In this document: positions 31,760 through 60,192 of the stretch, one piece after another
Numbering within the stretch: the first letter of the stretch is position 1
Layout: each line of letters begins with the position of its first letter
DNA from: Bdellovibrio bacteriovorus
GTDB taxonomy: Bacteria > Bdellovibrionota > Bdellovibrionia > Bdellovibrionales > Bdellovibrionaceae
Length of the DNA stretch: 64,000 nt
Assembly (NCBI RefSeq): GCF_001592745.1
Contig: NZ_LUKD01000008.1
Location: 1-64,000 of the forward strand
Reading direction: 5' to 3'
Notes under the pieces: generated by a model
The model's input: only the letters and a program-made list of their open reading frames with translations
What the model was told of the DNA's origin: nothing
The model's database searches: none
Position numbers and translations under genes: made by a program

Positions 31760-33247
31760 CTAAGCTTTTAAATAAAATTCGTGGGGAGTGGGTTTGTATC
31801 CAAACTCAAACCAAACCAGGCCATGTTCTTTTTCCCAAGCTTCAACTGTCGCAAGGTACTCTTTTGGCCAAAGTCCTTTCAAAATTGCTGTTTGCTTGTA
31901 CTGAAGCCACCCATTCACCGAATGAGCCTTTGAGTAGACGCTCTTGCAAGTTGAAAGTAATAATTTTCTAAGCTCAGTGTTCTCCACCTCTTCAAGAACT
32001 GAAAACTCAGGCGCATTTTCATTTTTAGCGATCGCTCTTTGAATCCTGTTCGCTTCAAGAATTGAAACTCCTGTCGTTCTTGCAAGAATTTTAAGCCAGT
32101 CCTCACGGAATATTAATAAGCCCTTGGTGTCCTTCAGTTCCGGTAAAGAGCTGGGACAATCGCTCGCCCTTCGCTGTGGGTAAGCAAAGAACTCCTCGCG
32201 CATTCCCAGCGACATTAAACAGTCTTGAACCATATAATCCATAGGGCTTTCAAAGCTATTTACTTTAAAGAACTCTTCAAGCTCCTCATTCTTCCATCGA
32301 GATTTTTCACGCCATTCAACAGAACTATTCTGATGTGCGTGGAAATTAGGATTCCAGTCGAGCCAGAAAAGACCTCGCGTACCATTTTTAGGGGCTTGTA
32401 AAATCATCGGGTCATAGTCGGAAAAGGAATTAAACTCCACTTTGCCGATTTGTTTTTCAAGGGATTTAAAAATATCTAAAAGGGGACTTCGAAAGGCGAT
32501 GACCTCGACGCCAGTTTTTTGCGTGAGTTCATCACACATCCGACCAATTTCTTCATGACGAGAATACTCGACATCCAGCCAAACAAATTTAGTGGCACTA
32601 AAAAGCTCGGGCAATAACCCATAGTCCATAGGATTTCTTTTTGAATAACCTTCGGCAAATAAAACTAAACTGCCTGCCGAATTTCCGCGCCCAGGGCCTA
32701 AAAGAATATTTTCTTTTTTTGCGTATTCGATAATCTCGCGAATGCCAGCAATAACTTGCTTTTTCTCATGGGAATAAAGCGAGATCTCTTCACGCACTTG
32801 TAAAAGAGCATGCTCATCAACAACGCCTTTTCTTTTTAGATTGTTCTCGCTGATTTCTAGGATGTTCTCCATAACTTGAGTCCTCTCTGTCTCTGACAAT
32901 TCCTTGTCTTGGTTTAAAGAGGTCAAAATGGATTCCAGGCTTTTTATCTGTTGCTGCATTTGGGCGGCACTTTTGCGACTCTCATAAAGACGCGCTTCTA
33001 GGAGTTCTTGCAGTGATTGCTCGTTAGTTTCGCGCAACAATGTCTTAATTTGCTCAAGCGTAAAACCAAGATGTTTGTAGTGCACAATGCGTTTCGCCGC
33101 CGAGACTTGCTCGGTCGTATACACGCGATAACGGCTTTCACTCCGAGTATGCGGAGATAAAATCCCCTTTTCTTCATAGAGGCGCAAAGCTTTAACCGAA
33201 AGCCCTGTGAGTTCGCCAAATTCGCTGATAGTAAGCCAGTTCTTCAT
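31760..33247 (-). CDS. MerR-family regulator fused to a degenerate DnaE polymerase core
   Basis: This encodes 495 residues from the ATG at 33247 (AGAGG 6 bases upstream; an ATG 3 bases earlier is possible). Residues 4-74 are a MerR winged helix (LTISEFGELTGLSVKALRLY, then the YRVYTTEQV wing); 80-145 a coiled coil. From about 150 it follows the DNA polymerase III alpha core: a helix before LGPGRGNSAGSLV (183-195), then KFVWLDVEY (220-228) in place of the PDFDVDF motif, keeping one catalytic Asp (D225) with Trp223 at the other, then GLFWLDW with D297 in place of the third Asp. Later KDTKGLLIFREDWLKILART and SVYSKAHSVNGWLQYKQT match the late palm region. PHP, fingers-tail and OB domains are absent. 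Function inferred: a regulator whose ligand or DNA end is sensed by a polymerase-like module. Stand-alone gene. Confidence 0.72.
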   Translation of the reverse strand: MKNWLTISEFGELTGLSVKALRLYEEKGILSPHTRSESRYRVYTTEQVSAAKRIVHYKHLGFTLEQIKTLLRETNEQSLQELLEARLYESRKSAAQMQQQIKSLESILTSLNQDKELSETERTQVMENILEISENNLKRKGVVDEHALLQVREEISLYSHEKKQVIAGIREIIEYAKKENILLGPGRGNSAGSLVLFAEGYSKRNPMDYGLLPELFSATKFVWLDVEYSRHEEIGRMCDELTQKTGVEVIAFRSPLLDIFKSLEKQIGKVEFNSFSDYDPMILQAPKNGTRGLFWLDWNPNFHAHQNSSVEWREKSRWKNEELEEFFKVNSFESPMDYMVQDCLMSLGMREEFFAYPQRRASDCPSSLPELKDTKGLLIFREDWLKILARTTGVSILEANRIQRAIAKNENAPEFSVLEEVENTELRKLLLSTCKSVYSKAHSVNGWLQYKQTAILKGLWPKEYLATVEAWEKEHGLVWFEFGYKPTPHEFYLKA

Positions 33248-33325
33248 CATGAACCTCTGATACTAAGGCTCAAGTCCGCCCCAAGGGCAGAGTAAAGTAA
33301 AAAAAAAGGGCGGATAGAACGGGAT

Positions 33326-33398
33326 GGGGCTCGCGCCGTCGTGGCGCTCGGTCCTTCGGACTGCCTTCGGCACCCTCGCGCTAGCATCCTGCTAGGGC
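33326..33398. repeat. 73-bp hairpin-rich repeat, copy 1
   Basis: The element contains four small hairpins in order: GCGCC-gtcgt-GGCGC, GTCC-ttc-GGAC, GCC-ttc-GGC and TAGC-ATCCT-GCTA. A second 73-bp copy lies at 33551. The two agree except for two loop bases and the outer four bases on both sides of the last stem, which change together. It is flanked by GGAT on the left and GATCGAA on the right. Confidence 0.75.
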
Positions 33399-33532
33399 GA
33401 TCGAAGCAACTAAGACCTTCAAAAGAACAAAACCAAATGGGCCCCAGCGCCATAGCGATGGGGTTCAGCAACATTTTTTTAAATTATGGTGAGATGAGAG
33501 AATCGAACGAACAGCCGCGCTGTTTAAAAAAA

Positions 33533-33638
33533 TGGTCGGGGAGATAGGATGGGGCTCGCGCCGTCGTGGCGCTCGGTCCTGCGGACTGCCTCCGGCACCC
33601 TCAAAATAGCATCCTGCTATTTTGATCGAACCTACGAC
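33533..33638 (-). pseudogene. tRNA-Pro 3-prime-end remnant split by the repeat
   Basis: Bases 33533-33550 equal the 3-prime end of the intact tRNA-Pro at 33735-33752, and 33626-33638 continue it (TCGAACCTACGAC, its T-arm). The 73-bp repeat lies between them with GAT at both junctions. The remainder of the tRNA is absent. A weaker tRNA-like 3-prime pattern (TGGT then GAATCGAAC) occurs at about 33487-33506. Confidence 0.7.
33551..33623. repeat. 73-bp hairpin-rich repeat, copy 2
   Basis: The same element as 33326-33398, with loop changes TTC to TGC and TTC to TCC, and the last hairpin AAAATAGC-ATCCT-GCTATTTT instead of GCGCTAGC-ATCCT-GCTAGGGC. Both arms changed so that pairing is kept (perfect here, one mismatch in copy 1). 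That supports selection on, or a copying mechanism for, the hairpin. It sits inside a tRNA-Pro remnant. Confidence 0.75.
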
Positions 33639-33685
33639 AGCTTGACCGATAAATTCGAAGCCTATCGCTTCCAGATCACAAAAAC

Positions 33686-33726
33686 AAAAAAGCCGACTGG
33701 CATCTTTGATGCCACTCGGCTTTTTT
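33686..33726. terminator. terminator of tRNA-Pro
   Basis: A 19-bp stem with one mismatch (AAAAAAGCCGAC... at 33686-33704 and GATGCCACTCGGCTTTTTT at 33708-33726), 3-base loop, lies 9 bases after the tRNA 3-prime end on the minus strand and is followed by a T-tract there. Confidence 0.85.
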
Positions 33727-33734
33727 GAAAAAGT

Positions 33735-33811
<77 letters not shown>

Positions 33812-33893
33812 ACGAGGAGTGGACAATAAATAATTATTGGCCCTGTTGTCAAATCACTAGATAGTAACGCACGACATTGCTATTCTTTTTTTC

Positions 33894-34556
33894 ATGGAAA
33901 ACTTCATAAACTCGCTTCCCAAACCTGTTCTCGCATTTTTAGCCATATTAATAGGCATCGGCGTCTTCATGCTGGTCAGCCCGCCGCACACGGTTTGTGA
34001 TTCCCAGCAGACGACTTTTCAAGAGTTGCAGAAGGGGAATATCTTCCCAACAGAGATTAAGAAGAACAAAATTCCTCCTACAATTGTTCGCGCTAAAGAG
34101 GCTTGTCAGCTCGGAAACAGCGCGGGTTCCTGCTATGAGTACTTCATGGTGCTGAAAAATGTGGCAGATGGTATCGGGAAGGCTTCTAGCGAATGCACGA
34201 CGCAGTTATTTAACGTGACCGAAGTGCGCTCGGCGATGAATGACGGGATTGAGTTGATGGCGCGTTTGGCCTGGGGGATTAAGCCGCCCGAGCCAGGGAT
34301 TGAAAGATTTGGTTGGATGCAAGAAGCCGACATCGCGATCTTCTGCCGTCTGAAGAACATCTACATTCGCGCCAACGGCGAAGAAGCGTGGGTGAATTTG
34401 CGTAAAAAAATATATGAAAAACTGCCGGGGGAGGAAGTGCCTCCACCGACAGATCCTACTCAGGTAGCGGTCGAACCTCGTAAGGCGACGCTGATGTTGA
34501 ATGAGCAGGATATTTTCAATCGAAGTTTGTTCTCGGTTCGTTGCGAAGCTTTCTAG
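33894..34556 (+). CDS. single-span membrane-anchored protein of unknown function
   Basis: This encodes 220 residues with one transmembrane helix at about 11-29 (VLAFLAILIGIGVFMLVSP) and a periplasmic or cytoplasmic soluble part containing six cysteines, several close together (CQLGNSAGSCYEYF). A Pro-rich segment near 175 precedes the end. No family recognised. The CDS stop overlaps the convergent small gene by 4 bases. Confidence 0.65.
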   Translation: MENFINSLPKPVLAFLAILIGIGVFMLVSPPHTVCDSQQTTFQELQKGNIFPTEIKKNKIPPTIVRAKEACQLGNSAGSCYEYFMVLKNVADGIGKASSECTTQLFNVTEVRSAMNDGIELMARLAWGIKPPEPGIERFGWMQEADIAIFCRLKNIYIRANGEEAWVNLRKKIYEKLPGEEVPPPTDPTQVAVEPRKATLMLNEQDIFNRSLFSVRCEAF

Positions 34557-59768: not shown

Positions 59769-59800
59769 TCGAACGGAGGGAGGGGAGGCTTCGAGCGACG

Positions 59801-59972
59801 GATTTGCGGTGGCAAGGAGGGGGTGGCAGCTTATGGCTCCAATCGCTTCGTGCGGCACGCGTCCTTGCTCATCGCCGCCGCCCGTTCGGGCGGTTCGCGC
59901 ATCCTGCGCCGGCGAAGGCCGCACTTCGCGCTTGGTCCCTAAGCTGCCACCCCCTCCTTGCCACCGCAAATC
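59801..59972. repeat. long perfect inverted repeat with hairpin core
   Basis: The arms at 59801-59833 and 59940-59972 are perfect 33-bp inverted copies. The core of 106 bases is GC-rich with hairpins, one CCGCCCG-ttcg-GGCGG-like and one GCGC-ATCCT-GCGC that shares the ATCCT loop of the 33326/33551 elements. Within 59712-60192 no convincing gene was found; short frames crossing the repeat are not supported. Confidence 0.8.
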
Positions 59973-60192
59973 TGTGCTGGAATTCCTTTTCCTTTCTTTG
60001 AAAGAAAATCCCGGAATTTGTTTTGAGTTTGGTCGTTTTTTCGTGGAATGAAGTGGCCTTTCCGGTGTTTTTTTGGTGGGAGGGCGGTTTAATTGGTTTT
60101 CAGCGGGTTTTTGGGGTTCTTTGGCCGTGACAAAAGCTTCTCTTTTCGCTTAGATAGAGCGGCAATTTGGGTCCTATTTTAAGGGGTAGTTC

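Follow-up and report, generated by a model that had tools for sequence, protein, structure and literature searches.

A 202-bp unit is precisely inserted at the tRNA-Pro(TGG) gene of the DNA analysed here, from the predatory bacterium Bdellovibrio bacteriovorus (the window, a stretch of 64,000 nucleotides from the genome that we call G000), and its relatives are present behind no fewer than five other genes of the tRNA type. The unit carries segments that match its host tRNA and four hairpins that covary in the way expected under selection. We consider it fairly probable that the unit represents an integrative element of about 200 bp that is not autonomous, is specialised for tRNA and tmRNA genes and is moved in trans by a putative recombinase. 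An earlier sequence-only reading had described a 73-bp element in two copies with four hairpins each. The hairpins are indeed found in both copies, at 33322-33410 (copy 1) and 33547-33635 (copy 2), which are 85-89 bp in size and 87% identical over 89 bp, but the extent was too small: the complete unit is 202 bp long. A terminator and the tRNA 3' end in inverted orientation also belong to it, it restores the tRNA, and it is found at several host tRNAs.

The insertion was seen by comparison with a close relative, the sister genome G001. In G001 the sequence TTTTTTTAAACAGCGCGG directly follows tRNA-Pro whereas, in G000 it is found only beyond the 202-bp unit, and G000 minus exactly 202 bp (33533-33734) is the same as G001 over 180 bp across the junction, which gives one clean pair of filled and empty sites. 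Since this exact deletion restores the G001 sequence, copy 2 belongs to a recent and precise insertion that left tRNA-Pro (33735-33811, minus strand) intact. The unit, also on the minus strand, is bounded by two copies of the 18-bp sequence ATCCTATCTCCCCGACCA, which runs from nt 59 in the T-loop to CCA, and one of these is counted in the 202 bp; the repeat, as TGGTCGGGGAGATAGGAT, was found at 33533 and 33735 only, within 33200-34000. Copy 2 had been placed inside a copy of the tRNA-Pro 3' end near an intact tRNA-Pro, and this was correct, as it interrupts that copy within the T-loop with GGAT and GATCGAACC as its flanks. The proposal of a mobile or tRNA-associated element that targets the T-arm or contains a part of it holds on both counts, because the T-loop is the insertion point with an empty site in G001 and because the unit contains host-matching T-arm and acceptor segments. 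Copy 1 (core at 33322-33406, minus strand) lies further out and is common to G000 and G001, with partial degradation in G001. It has the GGAT and GATCGAA junctions that had been reported for it, without further tRNA sequence, and its displaced tRNA end is no longer recognisable; it is an older insertion of the same family at the same tRNA-Pro. Between the two copies, at 33488-33513, TGGTGAGATGAGAGAATCGAACGAAC resembles the reversed 3' end of another tRNA and is also present in G001. Nearby on the minus strand (31760-33250) is a protein with an odd combination of domains, MerR DNA-binding ones first and then weak matches to those of DNA polymerase III alpha.

Read in the sense of the tRNA, the unit begins with the tRNA 3' end, followed by a terminator-like inverted repeat (33685-33727) with 20-nt arms that are 95% complementary; this repeat is also found in the elements of G007, G016, and G005 and is absent from the list of a simple terminator scan. 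Then come an inverted copy of the tRNA 3' end from T-loop to acceptor (33653-33672, plus strand), which matches at 14 of 20 positions here and at up to 19 of 20 in relatives, a short spacer that is a hairpin in the Glu copies read, and a copy of the 5' half of the T-arm (33626-33638, minus strand GTCGTAGGTTCGA) with 12 of 13 positions matching the host tRNA-Pro. The hairpins H4 (33601-33625), H3 (33587-33597), H2 (33575-33586), and H1 (33558-33572) follow, and the unit closes with GAGCCCC (minus strand; GGGGCTC at 33551-33557), which in the family alignments is the conserved element end at the T-loop junction, and with the displaced 18-nt tRNA 3' end (33533-33550, minus strand). There is no gene inside the unit and a simple promoter scan had no match inside it. 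The unit is 87% identical to the element at tRNA-Pro of G007 while the neighbouring chromosomes of G000 and G007 are only 73% identical, and therefore it is a discrete unit that was probably acquired separately.

Four bases on each side of the H4 stem differ between the window copies (TCGCGCTAGCATCCTGCTAGGGCGA and TCAAAATAGCATCCTGCTATTTTGA), as had been noted earlier. That the stem nevertheless stays complementary is fully true for copy 2, with 11 Watson-Crick pairs, but not for copy 1 (H4 at 33376-33400), where 10 of 11 pairs are Watson-Crick and one is a G.G mismatch. With a covariance model built from 14 copies, the E-values of the two window copies at genome scope were 5e-19 and 1e-18, and the complete 202-nt unit including the terminator had a z of -8.1 when folded as DNA; these values show that the window copies are not there by chance. 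The cores alone, when folded as RNA, gave z of -0.8 and -1.5 and are not unusually stable, so that the case is based on covariation and anatomy and not on folding energy. When covariation was computed on 32 distinct copies and 27 stem pairs, 93.7% of the cells were paired and 20 of the 27 pairs had changed on both sides, with 164 two-sided cells against about 10 one-sided ones, a result that none of 500 shuffles reached. The constraint on the hairpins that had been suspected from two copies is borne out by these figures. Wobble pairs made up 14 of 785 cells in the element and 26 of 408 in the tRNAs of the same loci (p = 6e-5), and covariation with almost no G-T wobble suggests that the stems pair as DNA rather than as RNA. 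Loops and linkers are conserved. Of 31 copies across the family, 21 retain the G.G mismatch of H4, and the pairs adjoining it vary among several Watson-Crick types.

The covariance search gave 27 strong matches in Bdellovibrio (E below 1e-7), and a third copy in G000, at C8:531934, is of the Glu type. The element is present in 15 of 24 Bdellovibrio genomes and absent from 9 at E<=1e-4, and further families of the order Bdellovibrionales have relatives detected by the covariance model, so the copies expected in related genomes do exist. Their expected association with tRNAs was also observed, since most copies lie 86-155 bp from a tRNA or tmRNA gene, always downstream and in the tRNA sense. The neighbours that could be identified are tRNA-Pro, Glu, Met, Leu, probably Ser (a weak copy), and tmRNA. 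Outside the genus the element was found at tmRNA in G055 and at tRNA-Pro in G047 and, in another family, G085, and the displaced end in G047, TGGTCTGCGCGACTGGATT, is identical to its own tRNA-Pro in 19 of 19 nt. No tRNA was present within the 1.2-2 kb read around the two matches in G066 and the one in G097. A loose sequence pattern searched against genome contigs matched Bdellovibrio sp. UBA4095 only, the plasmids, phages, and viral contigs searched had no match, and at the Rfam gathering score only tRNAs passed and the element had no match. In the literature searched, which consisted of open-licence papers, no description was found of an element with this build, that is, a hairpin element of the tRNA T-loop. 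Inside two Glu-type elements, in G001 (L064) and G016 (L072), there is a smaller two-hairpin sequence (AAAATAGCAGGA(T/A)GCTATTTT plus GGGTTGAGGGCAGGAGCCC), the 21-bp hairpin of which recurs alone and exactly across the genus. Beside the Glu-type copy of G000 (C8:529500-541500, L148) there are genes whose sequences suggest a type I restriction system, and they follow a small protein that has part of a recombinase domain.

Each element has three host-related segments, and mostly their best match is the neighbouring tRNA, although the segments are short, the scores are modest and in some old copies no host is matched above background. The flanks of copies with an identifiable neighbour correspond to the T-arm and acceptor end of that neighbour. 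The displaced end matches at 18 of 18 nt in the fresh copies (copy 2 of the window, G018b, and G008a), whereas in older copies (G005a, G005c, G018a, G007b, G000c, and G023a) it is at background and the inverted arm still matches at 15-19 of 20; in copy 1 of the window, G006a, G007d, and G000d the inverted arm is at background. The tRNA of G017 has the T-stem GCAGG/CCTGT in place of GTAGG/CCTAT, a variant that its element shares in the half T-arm copy and in the inverted arm alike. A tree of the cores groups them by host tRNA and not by genome, with 5 label changes compared to 13.6 in shuffles, and none of 200 shuffles was as low.

In the course of events that we consider probable, the element enters at the T-loop (in tRNA-Pro, between nt 58 and 59) and brings a tRNA 3' end of its own, which restores the gene and is followed by the terminator of the element, and the old 3' end stays at the far side of the element and decays. 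A recombinase supplied in trans may recognise the conserved hairpin core as folded DNA, and the identity of the target may come from the host-matching segments, the direct copy of the left half and the inverted copy of the right half. Islands at the same tRNA-Pro with large serine recombinases could be a source of the enzyme. What is hard to explain is the presence of one core at about six hosts, because a site-specific recombinase normally needs a different specificity for each tRNA, and this leaves room for the host-matching segments to address the element. It is conceivable, but we think unlikely, that the element is re-addressable, with these segments setting the target, one enzyme reading one conserved folded-DNA core, and transfer occurring between tRNA genes. 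The one apparent host switch, from Glu to tmRNA in G005, fits this idea, as the core of the tmRNA copy is related to that of the Glu copy of the same genome and its flanks lean towards tmRNA. No MITE-type parent with the same ends was seen, and the larger gaps between tRNA and core held either an ISL3-type insertion, recognised by reading the sequence, or island genes. G009a, with an ISL3-type transposase inside by sequence reading, and G000c, G018a, and G017a, with island sequence between tRNA and element, had been candidates for larger autonomous versions and because of these contents they are not autonomous parents.

There is another, larger family of hairpins, type B, with a copy at 59788-59980 of the window and others at L133-L143 and L209-L222; at E<=1e-6 there are 23 copies in G000, 26 in G001, and 17 in G018. 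A conserved core is enclosed by arms of about 30-60 bp, which form a near-perfect palindrome and are different at every locus, and between G000 and G001 both arms change jointly, including a matching one-base insertion. One type-B element of G001 has no counterpart at the corresponding place in G000 (C1:740200-741300; L049, L132), where 11 bp are left.

Strong covariation would also be expected if the unit were a structured non-coding RNA, or an antisense or tRNA-mimic gene, that co-evolves with the tRNA and whose mobility is incidental. An RNA of this kind would fit with the inverted arm, whose sequence is antisense to the 3' end of the tRNA and which outlasts the displaced end, and with the CUUCGG-type loops of the plus strand. 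However, wobble pairs are far rarer than in tRNAs, the simple scan placed no promoter inside the unit, the insertion in G000 is recent and missing from G001, and 9 of the 24 genomes of the genus have no copy at E<=1e-4, and we regard an RNA function as quite unlikely. Palindrome correction by template switching, instead of selection at the DNA level, could account for part of the low wobble, and the covariation as a whole might be a by-product of such correction and not of selection on structure. Template switching would give two-sided stem changes and very few intermediates, as seen here (164 against about 10 cells), and also the joint change of type-B arms in G000 and G001 orthologues, down to the one-base insertion. 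But the retained G.G mismatch, with adjoining pairs of several Watson-Crick types, argues against palindrome correction alone, the loops and linkers are conserved too, and both the host matching and the insertion would be left unexplained, which makes it improbable as the whole cause.

It may also be asked whether the unit is a mini-island, that is, a cut-down relative of the islands at these tRNAs that is moved by their integrases and whose hairpins are ordinary att-site arms. tRNA-Pro is much used by islands in this genus, and G021 and G017 have islands there with a large serine recombinase (Resolvase, Recombinase, and Zn ribbon) adjoining the tRNA; in G021 (L108) the reading frame of the recombinase extends into the antisense strand of tRNA-Pro (GRGDRIRTYDPLVPNQ) and G017 (L122) is similar, a sign of islands at this site. 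The island ends bear a similar T-arm-like inverted sequence (GCGAACC...), and islands are known to regenerate the tRNA and to displace its old end (Islander, PMC4383910). Nevertheless, the hairpin core is common to elements at different tRNAs that would be served by different integrases, none of the island ends read has a hairpin core, and a displaced tRNA-Pro island end was sought and none was recovered; this origin appears to us somewhat unlikely. Movement of the unit as a REP/REPIN-type element by a RAYT (Y1 HUH) transposase that recognises hairpins with a fixed mismatch is very unlikely. Y1_Tnp genes are present in most genomes searched and the conserved G.G mismatch of H4 resembles the irregular hairpins of REP sequences, but G008 and G017 have the element without a Y1_Tnp match, none of the seven RAYT loci read is flanked by the hairpin motifs searched, and T-loop specificity is not REP-like.

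In the reading that we prefer, few integrative elements at tRNA genes would be smaller than this one, and the question arises how one gene-free core sits behind many different tRNAs while the arms fit each of them. Arms that set the target would make this an unrecognised kind of addressable DNA insertion, and arms that are copied at insertion would point to a mechanism that duplicates and inverts the target. Bdellovibrio genomes also gain a repeat family without an Rfam match.

Among known systems, the attC sites of integrons resemble the element in that they are folded DNA whose stems covary and whose non-paired features are fixed. The target of the element, however, is the tRNA T-loop, and a link to integrons was not supported, as the integron integrase (TIGR02249) was over the cut-off in none of the 24 genomes of the genus. 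A link to IS110/IS1111 elements with a guide RNA likewise had no support, with PF02371 in only 1 of 24 genomes (G008). Like REP/REPIN sequences with their RAYTs, the element is short, intergenic, hairpin-rich, and gene-free without an obvious enzyme of its own, but unlike them it is specific for the tRNA T-loop and has host-matching segments. MITEs, which have been reviewed with other small mobile bacterial repeats (PMC2229807), are also non-autonomous, small, and flanked by direct repeats, with inverted repeats, whereas the 18-bp repeat of the element is part of the gene that it restores and its inverted copy is that of the target and not a fixed terminal repeat. In islands of the Islander type the target is split in its 3' part and restored by a copy on the element while the old fragment is displaced to the far end (PMC4383910), and the T-loop is a known place of crossover, as in the Ms6 phage (PMC1762012). 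The element shares with tRNA and tmRNA islands the restored tRNA and the displaced 3' fragment, but it is only 202 bp long without integrase or cargo. Unlike them, it combines an inverted target copy with four conserved hairpins, which lie between the half-copy of the T-arm and the displaced end, and it has a single core at many tRNAs. By this analogy, the element would work like a tRNA-targeting island reduced to its ends, minus the integrase.
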